Position numbers and translations under genes: made by a program. DNA of 64,000 nucleotides from an uncultured Clostridia bacterium (GTDB taxonomy: Bacteria; Bacillota; Clostridia; Oscillospirales; Acutalibacteraceae), in contig CANQDR010000004.1 of the NCBI GenBank assembly GCA_947593615.1, forward strand, positions 1 to 64,000, given 5' to 3'. Below, in pieces: positions 7,896 to 40,956 of this stretch (positions are counted from its first letter, which is position 1; each line of letters begins with the position of its first letter). The notes below the pieces were generated by a model. It worked only from the letters and a program-made list of their open reading frames with translations. It was not told the origin of the DNA and searched no databases.

Positions 7896-8597
7896 ATGTC
7901 AGCTTATGTATCTGCGGTAATTGTAGCGGCAGGCGGTTCTGTAAGAATGGGAATTGCTGACAGCAAACAGTTTATTCCGCTTTTATCACATCCTGCAATT
8001 GAATATACTCTTAACGCGTTTCAAAAATGTTACTTAATAAAGGAAATTATCGTAGTATGCCGAGAACAGGATAAAGAGCGTATTCAGAGCATTGTTGATG
8101 AAAACGGATTATCTAAAGTCAGCCGTCTTGTGCTCGGAGGTGCTTCCCGCGCGGAAAGTGTTCGCAACGGAATTGAAGCAACAAATAAAAAAGCAAAGTA
8201 TTTTGCCATACATGACGGAGCTCGTCCGTTGATAACGGTCGAGGAAATTGGACGTGTTATAGAAGCTGCATTTGAAACAGGAGCGGCAACGCTTGGAACG
8301 TCCGTAACCGATACAATCAAAATTGTAGACGGCTTTAATAAAATCGAAAGCACGCCCTTGCGCTCTCAGCTCAGGGCGGTGCAGACTCCGCAGGTCTTTG
8401 AAAAGGATTTGTACAAGTTTGCACTTGAAAATGCAGGAGATAATGCTATAAACTTTACTGACGACTGCGCGCTTATTGAGAGTATGGGCGGAGAAGTTGA
8501 AGTGGTAAAAGGCAGCAAGGAGAACATCAAACTGACCACACCGATTGATGTAATCATTGCCGAGAGCATTTTAAAGTCAAGAAATTTAAAGCCTTGA
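7896..8597 (+). CDS. ispD: 2-C-methyl-D-erythritol 4-phosphate cytidylyltransferase
   Basis: A 233-residue nucleotidyltransferase. The N-terminal AAGGSVRMGIADSKQF is the CTP-binding loop with its Lys, HDGARP is the conserved substrate strand, and TPQVF and ALIESMGG follow. It joins CTP to MEP in the non-mevalonate isoprenoid pathway. It stands 63 nt before ispF, the usual pairing, and is preceded by ACGGAGGG. Other genes of the route (ispA, dxs) lie at 44.7-47.5 kb. Confidence 0.94.
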   Translation: MSAYVSAVIVAAGGSVRMGIADSKQFIPLLSHPAIEYTLNAFQKCYLIKEIIVVCREQDKERIQSIVDENGLSKVSRLVLGGASRAESVRNGIEATNKKAKYFAIHDGARPLITVEEIGRVIEAAFETGAATLGTSVTDTIKIVDGFNKIESTPLRSQLRAVQTPQVFEKDLYKFALENAGDNAINFTDDCALIESMGGEVEVVKGSKENIKLTTPIDVIIAESILKSRNLKP

Positions 8598-25763: not shown

Positions 25764-25825
25764 TTTAAAATGATGAATGGTATAAAACTTATATTTATAA
25801 ACCAAAAATAAAAGTGGGTGAGGGA

Positions 25826-26668
25826 ATGAAGAACGACAGCATAACAATAATTAGCTCAAAGCGAAAGATATTAAACATTAATCTTAAAGAAATCTGGCAA
25901 TACCGCGACCTTGTTATGCTTTTTGTAAAGCGTGACCTCAAGAATTCCTACAAGCAGACGATTCTCGGACCCCTGTGGATAATTATAAACCCGTTTCTCA
26001 CTACATTGGTATTTACGGTGATTTTTGGAGTGATAGCAAACATATCGACAGACGGAATACCTCAGTTTTTGTTTTATATGTCAGGCAATATTCTGTGGTC
26101 GTTTTTTTCAAGCTGTCTTAACCGCAGTTCGTCAACTTTTCTGAGCAACGCAAGGCTTTTCGGTAAAGTGTACTTTCCGCGCCTTGTAATGCCGATTTCG
26201 GGAATTATCTACAATGCAATTACTTTTCTTGTTCAGTTTGGGGTATTTTTAATTCTTGTACTTATATATATGTTTTCGGGATTTAACGTACATCCGAACC
26301 TGCTGATACTTTTGTTTCCCGCGCTAATGCTTCAGGCGTCGTTACTCGGAACGGGATTCGGACTGATAATATCCTCAGTCACAACAAAATACCGCGACCT
26401 TAACGTGCTTGTATCGTTTGGAGTAACGTTATGGATGTATCTTACCCCTGTAGTGTATCCGACGTCGCAGGTACCCGAGAGTATCAGGACGTTAATTATG
26501 CTTAATCCTGTTGCGCCGATTGTCGAAACATTCCGTTATGCGTTTCTTGGAAGCGGAACATTCGAGTGGTTTTATCTGTTGATCAGCCTATTTGTAACAG
26601 CGGCGGTGCTGATTTTCGGAATAATAGTATTCAAGTATGTTGAAAAAGATTTTATAGATACGGTTTGA
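25826..26668 (+). CDS. ABC-2 permease for polysaccharide or teichoic acid export (TagG/Wzm type)
   Basis: 280 residues with six predicted helices and a cytoplasmic N-terminus. RDLVMLFVKRDLKNSYKQT followed by GPLWIIINP is the amphipathic N-terminal signature of TagG/Wzm/RfbA permeases. The start at ATG 25826 lies after GGGTGAGGG; GTG 25814 is an alternative. It pairs with the ATPase downstream to export an undecaprenyl-linked glycan. No glycosyltransferase genes are adjacent, so the substrate is unknown. Confidence 0.9.
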   Translation: MKNDSITIISSKRKILNINLKEIWQYRDLVMLFVKRDLKNSYKQTILGPLWIIINPFLTTLVFTVIFGVIANISTDGIPQFLFYMSGNILWSFFSSCLNRSSSTFLSNARLFGKVYFPRLVMPISGIIYNAITFLVQFGVFLILVLIYMFSGFNVHPNLLILLFPALMLQASLLGTGFGLIISSVTTKYRDLNVLVSFGVTLWMYLTPVVYPTSQVPESIRTLIMLNPVAPIVETFRYAFLGSGTFEWFYLLISLFVTAAVLIFGIIVFKYVEKDFIDTV

Positions 26669-27942
26669 TGAATATGAATGACAACTGCGTTATAAAAACA
26701 GAGAATCTCACAAAAGAATATCGATTAGGAGCAATCGGAACCGGAACGCTTCGCCATGATTTACAGAGCTGGTATGCGAAGAAGCGAGGAAAACAAGACC
26801 CCAACGTCCGCATAGGAGCAAAAACATACGAAAAAGGCGACAGATTTCTGGCGCTTGACGGACTCAGCATAGAAATCAATCGAGGAGAGCGCGTTGGAAT
26901 AATCGGAGCGAACGGAGCAGGAAAGTCAACATTTCTGAAACTGCTTTCGCGAATAACCTCTCCGACGGACGGAAATATAATGTTCAAAGGAAGAATAGCA
27001 AGTATGCTTGAAGTCGGCACAGGCTTTCACGGCGAGCTGACGGGACGGGAGAATATATACCTTAACGGGGCTATTCTCGGTATGAGCAAAACGGAGGTTG
27101 CTTCAAAAATAGATAAAATTATTGAGTTTTCCGAATGTGAGAAATTTATCGACACCCCCGTAAAGCGATATTCTTCAGGAATGTTCGTAAAACTTGCGTT
27201 TTCAGTAGCGGCGCACCTTGACGCAGAGATAATGATAATGGACGAGGTGCTTGCAGTCGGCGATATGCAATTCCAGAAAAAGTGTATCAAAAAAATGCGT
27301 GACCTCGCGCTTAATGATAACAGAACGGTGCTTTACGTATCGCATAATATGAACACGATTCGTGAATTGTGCAGCCGGTGTATAGTTTTGCAGCACGGCA
27401 AAATGATTTATGACGGCGATGTTGACGAGGCAATTAAGGTGTATCTCGGCGGAGAGCAGGGGGACTTTTTGAGCCATGATTACAGTGACTCAAAGCACAA
27501 AGAGCCGTCAGAGAGAAATGAAATCAATCTTAAATCTGTAAAATATTACGGAAAGACAGACAATATATTTAATGATAATGAAAAAATACCGCTTGAGCTA
27601 ACCTGGCAGAACAAGGAGGACATAAAAAACCTTTGTCTGCGAGTTGAGGTAAGCGATTACCGCCGTTTTCCTGTAACGGCTTTTGTAATAGAGAATTTTT
27701 ATTCAGGCAAAAAGGGAGAAGAACACACTCAGCGTTTTAATATTGATATTTCGCGCATAGCACGCGGAGGATACTATACGCGATATGTATTTTATAACAG
27801 AAAAAGCGAAGTCCTCCCTTTTGAAACTCTTGAAGCAGCGGCAGGATTAAGATTTCGCAAGCGTATGACAGACAAGAATGAAAACCGCTGGCAAAAATCA
27901 TGGGGAAGTGTCATAATGGATGAAATTGAACTGGCAGAATAA
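26668..27942 (+). CDS. ABC ATPase for polysaccharide or teichoic acid export (TagH/Wzt type)
   Basis: 424 residues. The ATPase domain (about 1-265) has a long loop before Walker A IIGANGAGKSTFLKLL, typical for this subfamily. Signature YSSGMFVKLAFSVA and Walker B IMIMDEVLAVGD are present. The C-terminal 150 residues form a Wzt_C-like beta domain that in Wzt recognises the glycan end. The ATG overlaps the permease stop (TGATG), implying coupling. A GC-rich terminator follows. Confidence 0.92.
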   Translation: MNMNDNCVIKTENLTKEYRLGAIGTGTLRHDLQSWYAKKRGKQDPNVRIGAKTYEKGDRFLALDGLSIEINRGERVGIIGANGAGKSTFLKLLSRITSPTDGNIMFKGRIASMLEVGTGFHGELTGRENIYLNGAILGMSKTEVASKIDKIIEFSECEKFIDTPVKRYSSGMFVKLAFSVAAHLDAEIMIMDEVLAVGDMQFQKKCIKKMRDLALNDNRTVLYVSHNMNTIRELCSRCIVLQHGKMIYDGDVDEAIKVYLGGEQGDFLSHDYSDSKHKEPSERNEINLKSVKYYGKTDNIFNDNEKIPLELTWQNKEDIKNLCLRVEVSDYRRFPVTAFVIENFYSGKKGEEHTQRFNIDISRIARGGYYTRYVFYNRKSEVLPFETLEAAAGLRFRKRMTDKNENRWQKSWGSVIMDEIELAE

Positions 27943-27988
27943 TGCATTCCATGAACAAAACGATTTGTAATAACAAAATAACAAAAGT

Positions 27989-28018
27989 TTTCGCCCGCCT
28001 TTTACAAAAGGCGGGCGA
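27989..28018. terminator. Strong hairpin after the glycan exporter operon
   Basis: About 14 bp of GC-rich stem (TTTCGCCCGCCTTTT and its complement) with a tiny ACA loop. T runs are weak on the plus strand and better on the minus strand. Confidence 0.65.
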
Positions 28019-28234
28019 AATTAATTGCTTTATAAAACACTGCATTGGTGAATTAATTGGTGAATTATTATTAATATGAATAATACAGTAAGAATATATT
28101 TTATTAAACTTACCCATAAAACTGCAAAATACGACAGAATTCCATAAAATTCTTGATATTTGCATAAAATTTTATTAATTCAATTGTGCAATTCGACAAA
28201 AATCTAAATATTCTAAGAAAATTCTACATAAATC
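28019..28234. other. AT-rich non-coding stretch upstream of the giant surface protein gene
   Basis: Very AT-rich, many short A/T runs, no ribosome binding sites with usable frames. It leads into the promoters at 28235 and 28424; nothing else was recognised. Confidence 0.5.
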
Positions 28235-28263
28235 TTGAAAATCTATTAAAATTATGATACAAT
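28235..28263 (+). promoter_or_regulatory. Candidate promoter P1 of the giant secreted protein
   Basis: TTGAAA (28235-28240), a 17-nt spacer, TACAAT (28258-28263). It would give a 5' leader of about 360 nt. Confidence 0.5.
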
Positions 28264-28423
28264 AATACCAAATTAAATAGTTGCGTGCAAAACTAATTGT
28301 GCAGAATTGTTATTGATTTTATGGTAATGTCAATAAAGTTACGTCAAGTTGCAATGTAATTATAACATAATAACACAATATTTCATTATATTATACAAAT
28401 ATAATGAAATTTCTTAAATCCCA

Positions 28424-28452
28424 TTGCAAAAATCTTGAAATAATATTATATT
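28424..28452 (+). promoter_or_regulatory. Candidate promoter P2 of the giant secreted protein
   Basis: TTGCAA (28424-28429), a 17-nt spacer, TATATT (28447-28452). Its start site near 28459 would fall just before the two-hairpin element. Confidence 0.4.
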
Positions 28453-28473
28453 ATATTAATGTTTTAATTTACA

Positions 28474-28540
28474 GATGAAATTTAAAAATTTCATCCATCA
28501 GCAACTAAGTAACTAACATTGTGGTCAGACAATGTTTTTA
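28474..28540 (+). terminator. Two-hairpin leader element ending in a terminator-like T run
   Basis: Hairpin 1 is GATGAAATTT/AAATTTCATC (28474-28483 with 28486-28495). A 19-nt single-stranded link follows, then hairpin 2 AACATTGT/ACAATGTT (28515-28522 with 28529-28536) running into TTTTTA. It sits about 90 nt before the start codon, where it could act as an attenuator or release a short RNA. Confidence 0.45.
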
Positions 28541-28631
28541 TATAAAATATTCATTAAATTCAGATGTGCCGTCAAATTATTTGAGCGTTTTACAGATGGT
28601 ACGTCTTAAATTGAGTTATGGAGGTAATTAA

Positions 28632-31600
28632 ATGAAACAATTGAAATTTAATTCTGGTTATGGAGGTAAATCGGTGAAAACGTCAATTAAGCGCGTCAGT
28701 AAGCGAACATTGTCTATTGTTTTGACAATACTTATTGCAATGTCAACAATGCTTATTGGTATGGTTAGTACGAGTGCTGCTATTGATAACAGCGGTTATA
28801 TCTACTTTGTAAAACCGAGTAGCTGGACAGATTCTAAAGTAGAATTTATGGTTGGTCATTCATCATATTCATGCGGTTATGATATGACGCTTGTTCCTCA
28901 TACAGATAACTTATATGTTTGTCAAACCAGTAACTGGGGAGATGCAACAGAGTTTGCATTCTTTAATACCAGTTCTAATTGGGAGGGTGAGAATAGCACA
29001 ATCGCTCACAGAGCGCAATATGCTACCCATTACACAGCTACTAAGAGTAATTACAGTCTGACAAATGGACAGTACTATCTTGCTACTCCTGCTTCAGGTA
29101 CAAATAATGCTACTGTTACTATGTCTTATTTTGGTACATCTGTATCCACCCTTAATAATACTCAAACTTTTGCTGTACGAACAGCCGAAAATGGCAGTAG
29201 TTCATATACTGCTCCGTCTACTTCGCCGGCAACAGTGTCGTTATCAGGTTATTATTTTAGCAGTTCTTATAATTCAACTACATCAAGAACAGCTTCTATA
29301 AGTAAGAATTCTTCAACTATCAGCAGCACTGCTTCTATTGGTTATTTAGCAAGTGTTACTCTTTCATATTCAAATCTTGATTCAAATTACAAATTTGTTG
29401 GCTGGTATAATTCTAGCGGCTCACAGTTAAGTGCAAGTTCTAGCTATACTTATTACCCAACTTCTGAAACTACAGTTTATGCACGCTTCCAAAAAGCAGG
29501 TCACACAGTTTCTGCGGTAGCAAAATATCAGACTTATGATCCTGATACTGACAGCTACAGCACGATAGCTAATGCTCCAACTACTGTAGGTACTGCGACT
29601 GCAAATCCAACTTCGGTACCGCAAAACTCATCTACAACTTTAACTGCAAAAGTTGTAAATACGAATTATACCTTTGAAGGTTGGTACACTAATTCTTCCT
29701 GTACAGGCAATAGTATATCTAGTGATCTTACATATAAGGTAACACCAACTGCAAATACAACATATTATGCATTATTTAAGGAAAAAGCATCCGAAAAGCA
29801 TACTTTGACAGTTCAAAGTGCTGACACGGTAACGGTTACTGCAAAATATCACAACACAAATGTTTTAGAGGGAAGCAGTACACAGGTACCTGCCGGCGGA
29901 GCTGTTACAGTAAATATTAATGGCATTCCTACAAATAAAAAATGTAACGTATCAGTAACCTCAACTGAAAATGTAACTGTTTCAGGCTCCGGAAGCTCCT
30001 ACACATTTAAAATGCCGGACGCTGATGCTACCGTAGTTGTTACTCTTACAGACAAAGTACAATATACAGTTACTGCAAAATCAAATAATAATTCATATGG
30101 TACAGTATCGCCAACAACAAAGACTGTTTATGAAGGTGATTCGGTAACTATTACTGCAACCGCAAAAGAAGGTTATTCTTTCCAAAAGTGGACTGGCTCG
30201 GGTGTTTCGCTTTCATCATCTCAACAAACAAACAAGACGCTTACTCTTACAAATATTAAGAATGATATTTCATTAACGGCTAACTTTACTGAAGAAACCG
30301 GTACACTGGTAAGTAACTTTCATTTAATATATGGTGAAGGTAACAATAACCCTACAACTTTGACAAAGAACCTTCCTGTTTACAAATTAAGTGACGGAAG
30401 ATATGTTGCAAGATTTACAAATGTTTCTTTAAAAACGAATACAAATTACTACTTTGCTGTATCAGGTTCAACTTCTTACACTGGTATGTATTGGCAGGGA
30501 GAAAGCTATAAGAATGATGTGTATGTTGTAAGTAAGGATACCGCCAACGTAAATGCTCAATACCAGAACTATACTTTGAATAATACAGAATATAACTTTG
30601 CTTATTTCAGCATTAAATCTGACGATGTAATAGGAATTACCATCGTTGTTGGTGTTGATGATGGACAGGGACATATCAAAGAACCTCATTATGAAGTAAT
30701 TCCAACAATTGAGACTGTTCCCGAAGGTACGGTGTCTATTTATGCAAAAGACGGAACAATTGGTTCAAATGCTAAGACTACATCAGCTTATGGTACAACA
30801 ACTGTAAAAACAACTGGTGATGTTACATTAAAACATACTTATACAGGATATAAGGAATATTATGCACCCGAGGGTTCTGTTATTGATGTAACTACAACAA
30901 TTAACAGTACATATAGCAAGGATTATTTTATTTACGCCTTTGTTGTTGACGGAGATTCCTACTATATGGCAGAGAAAGGTTTAAATAACCAATATACAGC
31001 AGAAATACCCATTGAAAAAGGTAAAAATGACATAGTGGAAATTACTCCAATATATTATACAAACGCATGTAAAACAGAGGGTCAATATATTACTATATAT
31101 GTTGATCTTAAGGACACAGATGAAGATGATTGGGATGAAACATTAGCGGGTTATTCATATTATTATCTGAATCCTGATGATGCGAGTACTGACTCTAAAC
31201 ATGGAGACGGTGACTGGCCGGGACAGCCGTTGCTTTATAATGAGGCTCTTGATAAATATTTTTGCCGTATACCCAGATATATGGAAAGTTACATTGTATC
31301 CGGTATTACATTTAATAATTATAATAATGATACCGTACATTCCAGTCTCTTCCCACAAAGTGGTAACGAACAAACTTATGACTATGCAGCATTTAAAAAT
31401 ATTTACAGGCTTGGTGCTGAAGTTATAGAGTTTGAAATTCATCCAAGATCAGGCAGCAAAACAAACAGAAGTATAGTTGATAGCGGTGCAGCTTTTAATT
31501 ATGAAACATATGCTAAAAACAATGGTTGGAATGTTTATACAACTCTTAGTGGAGAACAATCAGACCCGCTTGGAAATCCTGTTACTCCAGTAACAAGAGC

Positions 31601-33596
31601 TGCCACTGCTGGCAAAAAAGCATATATTGTATGTGTTCAAGGTGATAATAAGGCTGCTCAGGGCCTTGGTGAATATCCTATCGTTAGATATATTTATGAC
31701 CAAGATGGCAAAGTGATTACCTACGGCGACCCGGGTGACTTTGTTCCAAGATCTGATCCGAGTCAAAATACAGCTCAGTACAAAGCTGTACAGACCGCAG
31801 GCTTAGAGGGTGCTTATACTGAAATAACATATGAAAGCGAGTATAACGGTCGTGTTGATGGTCGTTGGTACTATCAAATGGAAACCACAATTACAGCAGA
31901 TGTTAAATATCAGACAAGTGATAATGGCTCTGATTGGTCAACACCTCAAGAAGACAAGGCTGTTGCTACAATCAATGGAGAAACATCTGTAACTTTTGAT
32001 TCTGATGGTCAGAATGCATCACTTGTTGCAAGAACGCTTAAGGGATACATATTTGCAGGCTGGGCAACTGTAGATGACAGCGGTATCTATCGTGAACTTG
32101 CATCAAATCTGGGAAGTTCTTTTACAACCGCAGTTGATACCGATGTCCACTATGTTGCAAGGTATGTTAAGGCTACAACAGGACAGCTCGTTTTGACCCA
32201 CGGAAAATTTGTTGGAACAGATGCAAAAGGTGGTGCTGGTTATTATACAATTTCGGCAAGAATACTTCGCCAAGGTGGTACATATTCAGATGTTGTATCC
32301 GGTACAGGCTCTGGTGCCTCAGGTCAGACCATAACTTTGAAAGATGTTTCAGAAGCTGACCAAAGTGTTGAAATAACATTGACAACAACTCCGTCAGGCG
32401 ATAATACTTTCCGCTATTGGTATAAAGATGATGGTGACGAATATGTAATCCTCAACGGTTCTGCTTTTGGCAAAACCGGAAAACAAACCTACACATTTAC
32501 AGTTCCTGTATCTGACCTCTTCACAGATGGTCAACAAACTGTAAACCAGTTGGATTATTATTCGGATATATCACCTGTTTCAAGAGAATACGTACTTACC
32601 TACAAGTATGTTGACCGTTTTGGCACCCAAAAATCGTATGTAGTTAGCGGTGAACATGATGACCAGTACTATATTAATAATCATAACTCATGGGCACCTA
32701 CTGAGGAACTCATCTATGAAAATGCTCCTGCAATTGATGACCTTTACAAAGATTGTAAATGGGTTGTAACAGAAACATCCATTGACGGTGCTTCTGCAAC
32801 TCTTGAAGCAGTTCAGAATGAGAAAACATACACGGTAAAAATTAAACAATCACCGGATAGCGTAGCTGATACATATAGTCTTTCTCTGAATAGTTATGTG
32901 CTGAATGGTGATAGTTACTACGTTGCTGATGAAACGTATGAAGGTCAAAATTTTGCTTATTGGAAAGTTACAGAAGACGGCAAAGAAGTTGCAAGACATT
33001 ATAGCAGATACTTTACTCTCTTAGTTGCAGGTGATTATGAAATTGAGCCTGTATACGGCGAGAATGTAGAAGATAATTTGTATATTTCTGATGCACAGTA
33101 CTCACGTGAACAATATACCGACAGTACCGGTGATCATGATTATGTTTATGCAGACTTCATTATTTCATTCTTGTCTTCAAATGGTACTCTTTTAAATGAA
33201 AACCCAGATTATCAGACAGGTATTCTTGTTGAGGTAGATAGAAGTACTGTTCTTACTGATGATGATATAGCACAGGGAGCTGATTATAGCAATAAATCAT
33301 TTGATAGTACTGATTCTGAGTTGAAACGTATTGCACAGGGTTCAGATTCAAAGACTACCTATAACTACAGCAGTTCGAATGTAAGAACTGTATTTAACTT
33401 CAAAGCTGATAATTCTAATTATAATAATATGAACAGACTTGATTACTTTATAAAATTCAGTAATACTGAGAATAACCGTAAGTTAGTTTTGAAAGCATAT
33501 TATTATGTAATTAAAGATGGAGAAGTTACTTTGAGTGATCCTGTTTATTTCAATTTCTATGATATTGGTACTCAATCTGCTAATACAGGAGAATAA
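28632..33596 (+). CDS. Giant secreted protein with InlB-type beta repeats
   Basis: 1654 residues. A basic N-terminus and hydrophobic core (about 25-47) form a signal peptide ending near STSAA. The mature part is rich in Thr, Ser, Tyr and Asn and contains at least five Flg_new/InlB-B-like repeats marked by aromatic-x-GW and ARF/ALF/ANF ends: YKFVGWYNSSG, YTFEGWYTNSS, YSFQKWTGSG, YIFAGWATVDD and FAYWKVTEDG. There is no LPXTG, no C-terminal membrane helix and no dockerin, so retention is unclear. ATG 28632 follows GGAGG; a second GGAGG-GTG pair occurs 42 nt later in frame. A surface or matrix role is inferred. Confidence 0.82.
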   Translation: MKQLKFNSGYGGKSVKTSIKRVSKRTLSIVLTILIAMSTMLIGMVSTSAAIDNSGYIYFVKPSSWTDSKVEFMVGHSSYSCGYDMTLVPHTDNLYVCQTSNWGDATEFAFFNTSSNWEGENSTIAHRAQYATHYTATKSNYSLTNGQYYLATPASGTNNATVTMSYFGTSVSTLNNTQTFAVRTAENGSSSYTAPSTSPATVSLSGYYFSSSYNSTTSRTASISKNSSTISSTASIGYLASVTLSYSNLDSNYKFVGWYNSSGSQLSASSSYTYYPTSETTVYARFQKAGHTVSAVAKYQTYDPDTDSYSTIANAPTTVGTATANPTSVPQNSSTTLTAKVVNTNYTFEGWYTNSSCTGNSISSDLTYKVTPTANTTYYALFKEKASEKHTLTVQSADTVTVTAKYHNTNVLEGSSTQVPAGGAVTVNINGIPTNKKCNVSVTSTENVTVSGSGSSYTFKMPDADATVVVTLTDKVQYTVTAKSNNNSYGTVSPTTKTVYEGDSVTITATAKEGYSFQKWTGSGVSLSSSQQTNKTLTLTNIKNDISLTANFTEETGTLVSNFHLIYGEGNNNPTTLTKNLPVYKLSDGRYVARFTNVSLKTNTNYYFAVSGSTSYTGMYWQGESYKNDVYVVSKDTANVNAQYQNYTLNNTEYNFAYFSIKSDDVIGITIVVGVDDGQGHIKEPHYEVIPTIETVPEGTVSIYAKDGTIGSNAKTTSAYGTTTVKTTGDVTLKHTYTGYKEYYAPEGSVIDVTTTINSTYSKDYFIYAFVVDGDSYYMAEKGLNNQYTAEIPIEKGKNDIVEITPIYYTNACKTEGQYITIYVDLKDTDEDDWDETLAGYSYYYLNPDDASTDSKHGDGDWPGQPLLYNEALDKYFCRIPRYMESYIVSGITFNNYNNDTVHSSLFPQSGNEQTYDYAAFKNIYRLGAEVIEFEIHPRSGSKTNRSIVDSGAAFNYETYAKNNGWNVYTTLSGEQSDPLGNPVTPVTRAATAGKKAYIVCVQGDNKAAQGLGEYPIVRYIYDQDGKVITYGDPGDFVPRSDPSQNTAQYKAVQTAGLEGAYTEITYESEYNGRVDGRWYYQMETTITADVKYQTSDNGSDWSTPQEDKAVATINGETSVTFDSDGQNASLVARTLKGYIFAGWATVDDSGIYRELASNLGSSFTTAVDTDVHYVARYVKATTGQLVLTHGKFVGTDAKGGAGYYTISARILRQGGTYSDVVSGTGSGASGQTITLKDVSEADQSVEITLTTTPSGDNTFRYWYKDDGDEYVILNGSAFGKTGKQTYTFTVPVSDLFTDGQQTVNQLDYYSDISPVSREYVLTYKYVDRFGTQKSYVVSGEHDDQYYINNHNSWAPTEELIYENAPAIDDLYKDCKWVVTETSIDGASATLEAVQNEKTYTVKIKQSPDSVADTYSLSLNSYVLNGDSYYVADETYEGQNFAYWKVTEDGKEVARHYSRYFTLLVAGDYEIEPVYGENVEDNLYISDAQYSREQYTDSTGDHDYVYADFIISFLSSNGTLLNENPDYQTGILVEVDRSTVLTDDDIAQGADYSNKSFDSTDSELKRIAQGSDSKTTYNYSSSNVRTVFNFKADNSNYNNMNRLDYFIKFSNTENNRKLVLKAYYYVIKDGEVTLSDPVYFNFYDIGTQSANTGE

Positions 33597-33686
33597 TACT
33601 GATTATTATATTTGCCCAATTATTTTCTTAATTTATTATATAAGGTCTATAATATGAGTAAATAATTTACATTTGTAAAAAAACAC

Positions 33687-33715
33687 TTGAATTATCATTC
33701 CTTTTATGATATTAT
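33687..33715 (+). promoter_or_regulatory. Candidate promoter of the acidic peptide gene
   Basis: TTGAAT (33687-33692), a 17-nt spacer, TATTAT (33710-33715), 56 nt before the ATG. The peptide could thus be expressed apart from the giant gene, after which no terminator was seen. Confidence 0.4.
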
Positions 33716-33770
33716 ATTTTAGAAATAGGATTTAATATTGTGATCAAGTATTGGGTAAAGGAGTTATAAT

Positions 33771-33917
33771 ATGAAAAAAACATATTTTGAACCGGATATT
33801 GAGATTCAGAAATTTTCTTTTGAAGAAATACTCGCTGGAAATCTGCCTGAAAGCGCCGGCGAACCTGAGGAACAAATTGGAACAGAAGGCGGAGATGCCG
33901 GAGAAGGAGATATCTAA
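33771..33917 (+). CDS. 48-residue acidic peptide, possible modified-peptide precursor
   Basis: Short gene with a near-ideal AAAGGAG site 7 nt before ATG. The product starts MKKTYFEPDIEIQKFSFEEI, continues through LAGNLPES to a Gly/Glu/Asp-rich tail ending GEGDI; net charge is about -10, with no Cys and no membrane segment. A conserved-looking leader-like half and a low-complexity tail recall precursor peptides. The hairpin at 33935-33966 follows. An HPr-kinase-like gene 1 kb downstream is the reason to suspect modification at Ser16, Ser28 or Thr38; that is inference. Confidence 0.65.
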   Translation: MKKTYFEPDIEIQKFSFEEILAGNLPESAGEPEEQIGTEGGDAGEGDI

Positions 33918-33934
33918 TATCTTAATTTTCATTG

Positions 33935-33966
33935 GTTATGGGGCAAACTTTGATTTGCCCCATAAC
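33935..33966 (+). terminator. Strong hairpin after the peptide gene
   Basis: Perfect 13-bp stem GTTATGGGGCAAA / TTTGCCCCATAAC (33935-33947 with 33954-33966). No T run follows directly, so it may stabilise the 3' end of the peptide mRNA or mark a processing site rather than terminate. Confidence 0.5.
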
Positions 33967-33986
33967 GGGTTTAATGAGGTTTTATT

Positions 33987-34835
33987 ATGGTAAAAAAATT
34001 TACTTTAATTTTTATTTCAGCAATTACTTTATTTTCTATTGCAACTTTTCAAACATTTGCAGAAACATATTTTGTATATGATCACTTTACTTTTTCAAGA
34101 AATGGTACAGATACAATTTCTATAGCTGAATATGATAATTATAATAAGAATATGGTGATACCTTCATCTATTTTAGGCGATACAGTTACTGCTATTGGCT
34201 TTGGCGCATTTATGGATAATACATTTATTGAAACCGCATTATTGCCCGACACAGTAACTTCTATCGGTGAATCAGCTTTTAACAGGGCTTATAATTTGAT
34301 TTCTGTTAATGTTCCTGTTAATTGTCAAATTGTTGAAGAAGGTGCATTTCAAAATTGCAAATCTTTGAAAATCGTGGATTTTCAAAGTCCTCTAAAATCT
34401 ATTAGTGTTCAGTTGTTCTATAATTGTACATCACTTGAAACGGTAGCGCTTCCTTCCACGGTCGAAACAATAAATAATTTCGCTTTTTCTGATTGTACCT
34501 CTCTTAAATCAGTTACAATTCCGAGAGCTACAACATCTATAGCATCAAATGCTTTCAGAAATTGTCCTAATTTAACAATTTACGGATACGCTGATTCTTA
34601 CGCTCAGCAATATGCAAATGAACACAACATTCCGTTTATTGCAATAAATGAATATGAGCTTGGCGATGTTGACCTTGACGGGTATGTAAATATTAAAGAC
34701 GCTACTACAATTCAGCGCTACATTGCAAGCATAGATACTTTAAGTCCCGAGGCATTTGCTGTTGCAGATTTTAACGCTGACGGTACCGTCAATGTAATGG
34801 ATGCAACTGCTATACAAATAATGCTTGTAAGTTAA
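33987..34835 (+). CDS. Secreted BspA-type leucine-rich repeat protein with C-terminal dockerin
   Basis: 282 residues. Signal peptide about 1-25. Residues about 60-205 are LRR_5/BspA-like repeats (VTAIGFGAFMDN, VTSIGESAFNRA, VETINNFAFSDC, TTSIASNAFRNC). The C-terminus is a type I dockerin with two calcium loops, GDVDLDGYVNIKDATTIQRY and ADFNADGTVNVMDATAIQIM. A dockerin binds a cohesin on a scaffoldin, so the protein is probably displayed on a cellulosome- or amylosome-like complex. No cohesin gene is in this window. BspA-type repeats often mediate adhesion. Confidence 0.9.
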   Translation: MVKKFTLIFISAITLFSIATFQTFAETYFVYDHFTFSRNGTDTISIAEYDNYNKNMVIPSSILGDTVTAIGFGAFMDNTFIETALLPDTVTSIGESAFNRAYNLISVNVPVNCQIVEEGAFQNCKSLKIVDFQSPLKSISVQLFYNCTSLETVALPSTVETINNFAFSDCTSLKSVTIPRATTSIASNAFRNCPNLTIYGYADSYAQQYANEHNIPFIAINEYELGDVDLDGYVNIKDATTIQRYIASIDTLSPEAFAVADFNADGTVNVMDATAIQIMLVS

Positions 34836-34850
34836 GTTAAATTTACTTAA

Positions 34851-34881
34851 ACAGGCTCACTTATGTGAGCCTGTTATTTTT
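34851..34881 (+). terminator. Intrinsic terminator between the dockerin protein and the kinase-like gene
   Basis: Perfect 10-bp stem ACAGGCTCAC / GTGAGCCTGT (34851-34860 with 34865-34874), TTAT loop, then TATTTTT. It ends just before the GGAGG site of the next gene, so that gene depends on read-through or an unseen promoter. Confidence 0.75.
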
Positions 34882-34892
34882 CGGAGGATAGT

Positions 34893-35597
34893 ATGAAATA
34901 TCTGATTGCTGATTTTGTAACTGAGTTTAAGCCTCGGTTCAGTCATCTTTCAAACCTCGTAAAACCTTTTGAATATTTGGGAAGTCGGCAGACGGATATT
35001 TTTCTTGATGTAAAATCTGATTACATTGAAAAACTCTGTTCTAAAATGGCAAAAGGAACAACGCTGGCTCAGGCTGAGGAGTTTGCATATGCAACAGCAT
35101 TTAATAAAAAAATAATTAAGCTTAACGCAATGTTAGTTCATTCTTCTGCTGTGGTTTATGAAGGCAGAGCATATCTTTTTTCCGCAGGAACGGGAGTAGG
35201 AAAATCCACTCATACCAAACTGTGGCAAAAGGCATTTGAAGATAAAGTGAGCATAATTAATGACGATAAGCCTGTTGTTAAAATTTACAAAGATAAATGT
35301 ATCGCATACGGCACGCCGTTTGACGGCGGAAGCGGCATTGCAAACAATGCTTCCGCTCCTTTGCAGGCAATAGTGTTTTTGGAAAGAGGAGAATGTAATT
35401 CAATCCGCAAAGCGGAAACTTCTGAAATTTTAAAAAATTTGTATTTTTCTACAGTCCATTTTGTAACCGGAGAGATTGCAGATTCAATGCTTAAAAATTT
35501 TGAAATGCTGATAAATCACGCTGATTTTTATATTCTCACCTGTAACACTGACATTTCAGCAGCATATATTGCCAAAGATGCAATTGTGCCGAGTTAA
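34893..35597 (+). CDS. HPr-kinase-like P-loop protein
   Basis: 234 residues. Shared with HPr kinase: a His before the P-loop (LVHSSAVVYEG, His83), Walker A SAGTGVGKSTHTKLW (97-111), the acidic INDDKP (122-127) and AYGTPFDG (138-145). The N-terminal HPr kinase domain and its C-terminal signature are absent, so it is not the carbon-repression enzyme; a canonical hprK is at 39988. Shortened HPrK-like proteins with NDDKP and YGTP occur in lasso-peptide and other RiPP loci, where some phosphorylate the peptide. The nearby acidic peptide is the candidate substrate; this is inference. Confidence 0.78.
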   Translation: MKYLIADFVTEFKPRFSHLSNLVKPFEYLGSRQTDIFLDVKSDYIEKLCSKMAKGTTLAQAEEFAYATAFNKKIIKLNAMLVHSSAVVYEGRAYLFSAGTGVGKSTHTKLWQKAFEDKVSIINDDKPVVKIYKDKCIAYGTPFDGGSGIANNASAPLQAIVFLERGECNSIRKAETSEILKNLYFSTVHFVTGEIADSMLKNFEMLINHADFYILTCNTDISAAYIAKDAIVPS

Positions 35598-35607
35598 AAT
35601 AACATAA

Positions 35608-35988
35608 CTATAATAGGTTTTCTATATATGGGAACTCACTTTCTTTTAGGGAGGTGAGTTCTTTTTTTACGCCTGCACTTGCGGCAAAGTACAAATCTGT
35701 GCTTGAGTTTTCAGCATATGAGCGCATTTTTGAAATATTAATTCCTATACTGTCAACATAGTCGTGAATGAGCAGCATATTAATGCTTTCAGCGCTCTCA
35801 TCCCATTCTTTTTCAATATTTTTGCAAAGCTCAATTGCTTTTTTATAATCTTTTTTTACCATAAGCTCGTTTGATTCTTCTATTTTTGAAACAATTAAAT
35901 CTGTTTTTGCGCTTACATACCCCAATTCAATTCCTGAAATAACTGCGGCAAAAAGCAGAAAAATCACGGCAATATAAATTCTTTTCAT
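35608..35988 (-). CDS. DUF4363 family protein
   Basis: 126 residues with an N-terminal membrane anchor (about 4-24) and a mostly helical extracytoplasmic part containing KIEESNELMVKKDYKKAIEL, matching the DUF4363 family. It starts 3 nt after the DUF421 gene, the usual partner in clostridial genomes. Probably an exported helical partner of the DUF421 membrane protein; function unknown. Confidence 0.78.
   Translation of the reverse strand: MKRIYIAVIFLLFAAVISGIELGYVSAKTDLIVSKIEESNELMVKKDYKKAIELCKNIEKEWDESAESINMLLIHDYVDSIGINISKMRSYAENSSTDLYFAASAGVKKELTSLKESEFPYIENLL
35632..35668 (+). terminator. Plus-strand terminator lying inside the antisense DUF4363 gene
   Basis: Stem 35632-35641 with 35652-35661 (GAACTCAC/GTGAGTTC core) followed by T7 at 35662-35668. 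It terminates the kinase-like gene but overlaps the last codons of the convergent DUF4363 gene. Confidence 0.75.
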
Positions 35989-39987: not shown

Positions 39988-40956
39988 ATGCCTGTCGAAT
40001 TTTCGGTACCTTTGTCAAGCATAGTTGATGATTTGCACCTAAACAAGGTCTATATAGCGGAAAATTATGAAGATATAAAAATCACAACTGTTGAAATTAA
40101 CAGACCGGGACTTGAACTTACAGGTTACTATGAATTTTTTGATAACAAGAGAATACAGGTGCTCGGAAATACCGAATTTTCATATCTCGGACGTTTTGGA
40201 ACAGAGGCGCAGCGAATGGTTATTGATTCCATTTTCAGCTTCGGACCTCCTGCGGTTATAATATGCCGAGATATTGAGCCGTCAAATGCTATTATGGAAA
40301 GCGCCAAGCTTCACAAGGTATCTATTTTCAGTACAAACGACAATACCTCAGACCTCACGGCTTTGCTGGTACAGTATCTTAACCGAGAGCTTGCTCCCAG
40401 AATAACCCGTCACGGAGTACTTGTTGAGGTTTACGGCGAAGGCTGTTTGCTTATAGGCGACAGCGGCGTAGGTAAAAGTGAAACGGCAATGGAGCTTATA
40501 AAGCGCGGACACAGACTTGTGGCAGATGACGCTGTTGAAATACGCAGAACATCAGCAACGACTCTTATCGGTCAGTCACCGGCGAATATCCGACATTTTA
40601 TTGAGCTTCGCGGCATAGGTATAATAAATGCAAGACAGCTTTTCGGTATGGGTGCGGTAAAAACTCAGGAAAAGATTGATATGGTAATCAATCTTGAATT
40701 ATGGGACAACGCAAAGGTATATGATAGAATGGGCCTTGATAATGAATATATGGATATCCTCGGTGTTGAGGTGCCTACACTGACAATTCCCGTAAAGCCC
40801 GGACGTAACCTTGCTGTCATTATTGAAGTTGCCGCAATGAACAACAGACAGAAGAAAATGGGATATAATGCCGCTCAGGATTTGCTCAAAAGTCTGGGTA
40901 TGGAGATAGACGAAATGACATCTTCACCTAAAGTTGTTATTGATAAATGGGAATAA
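39988..40956 (+). CDS. hprK: HPr kinase/phosphorylase
   Basis: 322 residues, canonical. Catalytic His142 in RHGVLVEVYG, Walker A GDSGVGKS (157-164), ADDAVEI, and the signature IELRGIGIIN with FGMGAVK. It phosphorylates Ser46 of HPr in response to glycolytic intermediates, controlling catabolite repression. It heads a conserved cluster with the PHP, murB, rapZ and whiA genes. GGCGGTGAG precedes the start and TATAAT at 39932-39937 is a likely -10. Confidence 0.97.
   Translation: MPVEFSVPLSSIVDDLHLNKVYIAENYEDIKITTVEINRPGLELTGYYEFFDNKRIQVLGNTEFSYLGRFGTEAQRMVIDSIFSFGPPAVIICRDIEPSNAIMESAKLHKVSIFSTNDNTSDLTALLVQYLNRELAPRITRHGVLVEVYGEGCLLIGDSGVGKSETAMELIKRGHRLVADDAVEIRRTSATTLIGQSPANIRHFIELRGIGIINARQLFGMGAVKTQEKIDMVINLELWDNAKVYDRMGLDNEYMDILGVEVPTLTIPVKPGRNLAVIIEVAAMNNRQKKMGYNAAQDLLKSLGMEIDEMTSSPKVVIDKWE

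Follow-up and report, generated by a model that had tools for sequence, protein, structure and literature searches.

A sequence-only reading of a 64,000-nucleotide stretch of DNA from an uncultured Clostridia bacterium of the Acutalibacteraceae (hereafter the window; part of contig C4, CANQDR010000004.1, of the 2.2 Mb draft genome G000, GCA_947593615.1) had singled out four plus-strand genes, encoding a large secreted protein, a short acidic peptide, a secreted leucine-rich repeat (LRR) protein with a dockerin, and an HPr-kinase-like protein, as a possible surface-attached system in which the peptide is phosphorylated. We found that the peptide belongs to a family whose genes are tightly paired with genes for large, mostly secreted proteins, a pairing that is apparently new and is a stronger result than the peptide-kinase idea. 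The cassette itself is confirmed as a real unit, with four open reading frames (ORFs), each having an ATG start and a TAA stop, lying in a row at 28632-35597 as that reading had placed them.

Pairing of peptide genes with long upstream genes

A profile built from 18 peptides, the window peptide among them, gave 105 matches in 41 of the 59 genomes. To directly follow a long ORF, a peptide gene had to have an ORF of at least 390 aa on the same strand within 250 bp upstream. By this rule, 79 of the 99 matches having 600 bp or more of DNA upstream (the six with less being left out) directly follow a long ORF, as compared with 119 of 803 control genes, namely the other genes of at least 60 aa in the same loci (p=8e-40); the controls, like the other gene calls, came from a simple caller written for this analysis. 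Because the genomes are related, this and all other p-values given here, which ignore kinship, overstate independence. The median gap between the long ORF and the peptide gene is 16 bp. A signal-peptide rule is passed by 45 of the 79 upstream ORFs and failed by 4, the other 30 having no N-terminus in the available sequence; the rule is crude, and membrane proteins, for example an ABC transporter at G051:C19, pass it as well. Outside the genus, the peptide gene follows an ORF of 315-1889 aa, across gaps of 9-84 bp, in 12 of 13 cases in G075, 4 of 5 in G100, and the one case in G143 (9/13, 4/5, and 1/1, respectively, under the 390-aa rule). The class-level peptide contexts examined numbered 21 of 61, comprising 13 of 15 in G075, all five in G100, one in G143, and those in G000 and G053. 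On the other side of the peptide gene, a downstream ORF with a dockerin-like C-terminus, recognized by pattern, is present for 22 of the 98 peptides with downstream DNA.

The large protein of the window (1654 aa; 28632-33596, plus strand) is the first product of the cassette, and a large ORF occupies the same place in orthologous loci. It has InlB-type repeats of the Pfam families Flg_new_2 (PF18998) and Flg_new (PF09479) and a signal-peptide-like N-terminus, in agreement with the earlier description of its size, repeats, and secretion. Its residues 1465-1654 (33024-33593, plus strand) form a C-terminal domain that is common to many proteins encoded before family peptides. A profile grown from the last 200 residues of the window protein matched 31 of 86 peptide-linked C-termini, as against 2 of 304 controls, and both control matches also precede a peptide; the first profile had not picked up one of these two peptides, and the other had been put aside because of its longer gap. 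In a genome-wide search, a peptide follows 37 of 39 domain matches: 30 precede a peptide-profile match (the one in G009 at about 400 bp), and, by inspection, seven of the other nine are followed by a peptide, the two without one being G007:C94 and G007:C197. Once the 25 profile rows were removed, the domain was followed by a peptide in 12 of 14 matches, six of which come from one genome, G007, itself a source of profile rows. The modeled domain consists mostly of beta strands (predicted local distance difference test, pLDDT, 80.6), and structural comparison of the model gave no clear match. Since the peptide genes lie directly behind a recognizable C-terminal domain, the domain provides a rule for finding such peptides.

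Two further observations concern these pairs. Genome G007 carries a family of near-identical surface-protein C-termini (L146, L178, and L224-L229), partly on short contigs, which are mostly followed by near-identical peptides, with L227 and L229 as exceptions. In the duplicated units of L128 and L133, the secreted protein and the peptide stay together, and at L128 so does a dockerin-type ORF.

The cassette, its peptide, and its kinase-like protein

The order of large secreted protein, peptide, LRR-dockerin protein, and kinase, whose conservation the sequence-only reading had proposed as a check, recurs in six other genomes, giving seven loci with the window (L032, L034, L035, L036, L037, and L040; the L032 dockerin was identified by eye, and the L035 peptide, which was outside the 14 seeds, was recovered by the seed profile at E 1.1e-7). 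The same three genes precede both the kinase of L032 (metagenome-assembled genome, MAG, 'Lapin-014'), which is 88% identical to that of the window, and the orthologues in G029, G001, G002, G032, and G034, which are 51-57% identical. Against these seven loci, the orthologues at L033, L038, and L039 lack the four-gene set; that at L041 lies in a locus ending at a contig edge.

The peptide gene (48 aa; 33771-33917, plus strand) is the only peptide-profile match in G000 (E 4.8e-19), and the composition of its product, with 13 Asp or Glu residues and three Lys or Arg residues, agrees with the acidity first ascribed to it. Its conserved leader part, MKKTYFEPDIEIQKFSFEEIL (33771-33833, plus strand), contains a YxxPxI motif, which is the motif bound by the recognition elements (RREs) of lasso peptides and of linear polyphosphorylated peptides (LPPs), a group of ribosomally synthesized and post-translationally modified peptides (RiPPs) described in 2026 (PMC13381572). 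Specifically, YFEPDI at residues 5-10 fits the RRE-binding pattern [Y/W]xxPx[L/V/I/A/F/Y], and, in the peptide alignment, Pro8 is invariant and Tyr5 nearly so. The family leader has the consensus MKKxYxxPEIEIxKF and is followed by a variable tail, in many cases acidic. A Ser stands at Y+19 in 70 of the 105 matches and somewhere within Y+17 to Y+21 in 93 of them, the Ser fraction further on being 0.067; the conserved position is near the LPP site, which is Y+18 by our own count. In comparison with the nearest relative, L032, the ratio of nonsynonymous to synonymous substitution rates (dN/dS) of the peptide is 0.24, from a small sample of 48 codons. Among other family loci, L111 (G037:C48) encodes two different family peptides one after the other, behind a single ORF that runs off the contig. 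At L067 (positions 8225-8473, in G048), a peptide-like ORF (MKKTYEKPMVYFEEL...), which is under the profile threshold, lies beside a kinase, a PqqD match, and a large ORF.

The kinase-like protein (234 aa; 34893-35597, plus strand) had been described as a truncated HPr-kinase-like protein. The kinase-like part of that description held up and the truncation did not, since its structural model (pLDDT 91.4) aligns end to end with phosphoenolpyruvate carboxykinase (PEPCK), and Foldseek and VIA matches point to a whole-chain shared fold with a P-loop; as modeled, the protein is a diverged but complete representative of the HprK/PEPCK fold. The protein thus resembles HPr kinase/phosphorylase in its fold and phosphate-binding loop, but it matched no Pfam family at E<=0.01, and hence not Hpr_kinase_C, and the true HPr kinase is a separate gene located 4.4 kb away (39988-40956, with Hpr_kinase_N and Hpr_kinase_C), to whose product BLASTP found no significant similarity. 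His83, Lys104, Asn123, Asp125, Lys126, and Pro127 are invariant in 18 diverse kinase rows, and Asp124 also in 62 closer rows. The dN/dS against L032 is 0.14, and, in a kinase tree, the window clade groups with the kinases of L042 and L045 (support 95/85). Among the 120 kinase relatives listed, two are named as a 'Ruminococcus sp.' MAG protein and one as a 'hypothetical protein'. A second kinase-like gene in G000, L051 (G000:C29:20569-21243), is 34% identical; its clade has, in relatives, a constant downstream neighbor of ∼285 aa and, in G000 and G002, an rpoB-like gene (named by eye) on the other side, and a peptide-profile search near L051 in G000 gave no match.

Consistent with the expectation that peptide and kinase genes would co-occur, 40 of the 59 genomes (G000 included) have both, four have the kinase only (one being G048), one has the peptide only, and 14 have neither (p=3e-9). 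In a class sample of 196 genomes, the peptide was found in 18 of 58 kinase-positive genomes and in none of 138 kinase-negative ones (p=3.5e-11, or 4e-10 without the two genomes that contributed to the profiles), so that all 18 peptide-positive genomes are kinase-positive. Most peptide genes follow a long ORF and few lie near a kinase, and yet peptide and kinase genes co-occur between genomes; the peptide is thus linked to the secreted protein through gene position and to the kinase through presence in the same genome.

The sequence-only reading was unaware of any described system with such a composition. As far as the literature searched shows, the pairing with surface proteins may indeed be without described precedent, and the word 'surface' is absent from the main text of the LPP paper; the peptide-plus-kinase half, however, matches the LPPs. 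Their clusters (lppA-K-B-S-D-N) encode a precursor with a YxxP leader, an RRE, a SpI-like peptidase, an exporter, a nucleotidyltransferase (NTP transferase), and an HprK-like kinase, which was shown to phosphorylate Ser3 of the core (PMC13381572). Similarly, the window combines a short precursor, having a conserved N-terminal YxxP leader and a variable C-terminus, with an HprK-like kinase near the precursor gene, here one gene further on. Relatives come closer still. In L063, a kinase of this family lies beside PqqD (a PqqD-type RRE), an ABC transporter, NTP_transf_5, and a weakly matched SpI gene; in L042 and L045, the four-gene set of the window precedes PqqD, an ABC-type ORF (domain-scanned only in L042), and NTP_transf_5; and in L043, PqqD and NTP_transf_5 lie behind the kinase, the peptide gene being located upstream of the gene for the large protein. 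Unlike the LPP clusters, the window has only the peptide and the kinase, a domain scan having found no discrete RRE, SpI-like peptidase, or NTP transferase among the four genes of the cassette. These functions occur together elsewhere in G000, where C15 (∼27,000-28,600) carries an RRE, a sub-cut-off SpI match, and NTP_transf_5 behind a groEL-like gene (named by eye), an arrangement also present in G002, G029, G032, G034, and G030. The window cassette may thus be a split LPP-like system, which further differs from LPPs in the pairing of its peptides with large secreted proteins and in the presence, in some species, of several peptides per genome. A weak PqqD match at G000:C7:35494-35667 lies inside a 488-aa open frame and recurs in many relatives, where the frames measure ∼457-495 aa. 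In G075, a short-form kinase locus with PqqD-like and SpI-like neighbors had no peptide-profile match beside the kinase.

Two other systems invite comparison. Paeninodin-type phosphorylated lasso peptides share the HprK-like kinase, the RRE, the NTP transferase, and a leader-bearing precursor (PMC13381572). The window leader has Tyr in place of the paeninodin-typical Trp, and lasso macrolactam synthetase and B2 protease domains were absent from the four genes, to which the search for them was confined. The SynChlorMet cassette has radical-SAM partners, none of which was seen among the four genes of the window cassette; its kinase-like ScmC weakly matches the window kinase (17.6 bits against a cut-off of 125) and its PqqD-like ScmD the PqqD of L042 and L063, with scores far under the NCBI cut-offs.

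A proposed role for the peptide and its rivals

Gene order, leader conservation, the kinase fold with its kept residues, genome-level co-occurrence, and the tight pairing with long genes, mostly for secreted proteins, are the observed basis for a reading to which we give an even chance: a surface-protein/peptide pair with its own kinase, in which a modified RiPP-type peptide serves the large protein. The 48-residue peptide would be a RiPP-type precursor, whose leader would be bound by a PqqD-type RRE, whose core serine would be phosphorylated by the HprK-like kinase, and whose leader would be cut off by the signal-peptidase-like enzyme, with the RRE, the peptidase, and the nucleotidyltransferase acting in trans from G000:C15. 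The mature acidic core would then serve the large secreted protein of the preceding gene. It would most probably bind to the C-terminal domain of this protein, or be joined near that domain, and would so aid the assembly or attachment of the protein at the cell envelope, the LRR-dockerin protein presumably belonging to the same surface complex. Phosphorylation, RRE binding, and cleavage have been demonstrated for LPPs (PMC13381572), and this relationship makes the peptide-kinase idea plausible; modification of the window peptide itself, as well as every surface-protein step, including the surface attachment of the system, is putative, so that the original interpretation as a whole is partly supported. 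Our preferred guess for the peptide is a C-terminal ligand, linker, or anchor of the large protein. A RiPP-like pathway dedicated to surface proteins, in which each such large secreted protein has its own leader-bearing peptide gene directly downstream, a shared kinase, RRE, and peptidase modify the peptides in trans, and the modified peptide is an obligate ligand, linker, or anchor of the C-terminal domain of its protein, is an idea that we hold tentatively, at somewhat less than an even chance. The pairing with large secreted proteins gives LPP-like peptides a concrete, testable role, in the envelope proteins of Ruminococcus-related anaerobes, and suggests that one small enzyme set serves many precursors.

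Several observations weigh against a modified peptide serving the large protein. First, Y+19 is Asn in the window peptide, which contains no Ser within Y+17 to Y+21, its next later Ser being residue 28 (Y+23); the L032 peptide also lacks a Ser within this range, as do 12 of the 105 matches, including four of the six window-type cassettes in that set, and the canonical Ser is absent in five of all seven. By eye, a Ser is present somewhere in the range Y+19 to Y+23 in all seven cassettes. The LPP kinase rejected Thr at its site (PMC13381572). Phosphorylation of the window peptide may therefore take place at a shifted Ser, or not at all. Second, in the full LPP motif, YxxPxVLxHQxIxFETxxS (PMC13381572), the leader part LxHQxIxFETxxS has no equivalent here, the window reading YFEPDIEIQKFSFEEILAG and the family leader continuing mostly as ExxxFxxEDVITTS. 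Third, the SpI-like gene of G000 matches no Pfam family and reaches only 29.9 bits where the cut-off is 51.85, and no MsbA-like exporter was found among the four genes or in the C15 trio, the only parts of the genome searched for one. Fourth, a kinase occurs without a detected peptide in four of the 59 genomes and in 40 of the 58 kinase-positive genomes of the class sample; only 19 of the 105 peptides have a kinase within 4 kb, and 78 have neither a kinase nor PqqD at that distance. Finally, among the 79 long upstream ORFs, at least three (in G022, G051:C19, and G021:C34) look unlike surface proteins.

The least unlikely alternative, though we consider it doubtful, is that the peptide is secreted as an independent LPP-like product, serving as a signal, an antimicrobial, or a part of the matrix, and that the surface protein is only a regulon mate, adjacent for co-expression. 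LPPs and paeninodins of the Bacilli, whose roles are stated to be unknown, are often found in capsule loci (PMC13381572), and an ABC transporter gene lies behind the kinase in L042 and L063, with a similar-reading, unscanned ORF in L043, L045, and L222. However, the very peptides that mostly stand apart from kinase and PqqD genes directly follow a long ORF, and the C-terminal domain predicted a peptide in 12 of the 14 cases outside the profile, both of which weigh against this alternative. Less likely again is that the peptide stays unmodified in the cytoplasm and helps the large protein or sets its timing, as a secretion chaperone or a translation-coupled regulator would, with the kinase acting on other substrates. 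The missing canonical Ser of the window, the same-strand arrangement and short gaps of most pairs, and the lack of an exporter beside the window or C15 genes would suit such a factor, but peptides of the class sample were found only where a kinase was found, 40 of the 41 peptide-positive genomes among the 59 also have a kinase, the leader bears an RRE-type motif, and a Ser is frequent at Y+19. Loss or change of the kinase activity, leaving the peptide as a relic and the surface and LRR-dockerin proteins as the functional part, would explain the missing canonical Ser in window-type cassettes but is quite improbable, given the low dN/dS of both kinase and peptide and the invariant kinase residues.

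The LRR-dockerin protein, hairpins, and flanking sequence

The sequence-only reading had placed a hairpin or terminator at every junction but one; our terminator scan found no terminator-like site at the junction between the large gene and the peptide gene. A 12-bp hairpin without a T run lies between the peptide and LRR genes (33936-33965, plus strand) and is strong in three of the seven cassettes (window, L032, and L035). A terminator-like hairpin with an 11-bp stem and a T-rich tail stands directly before the kinase ribosome-binding site (34850-34875, plus strand), and another lies 3' of the kinase gene (35630-35663, plus strand). A single site of this type is weak evidence, since the scan overall gave 9 sites against 5.8 expected. 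A strong LRR-kinase hairpin is present in all seven cassettes, its stem sequence differing in L034, L035, and L036, which fits the graded expression suggested earlier.

Upstream of the large gene, an AT-rich leader (28265-28640) folds better than its shuffles (z -3.56) and contains an 8-bp hairpin with a T run at about 28515-28536; it had no Rfam match above the gathering score, and the hairpin had no counterpart near that place in four related loci. A promoter-like match at 28235 is a consensus match only (68 found in the scan against 42.9 expected). Genes for an ABC-2 permease and an ABC ATPase (25814-27942) lie immediately upstream of the large gene, and none were seen at this place in L034, L036, and L037.

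The third product of the cassette (282 aa; 33987-34835, plus strand) is a secreted LRR_5 protein (9e-32) with a type I dockerin (Dockerin_1, 4e-11), which agrees with its first description; both domains were found by Pfam. Two of four cohesin matches in G000 are above the cut-off, so that the dockerin and its putative cohesin partners are present in the same genome.

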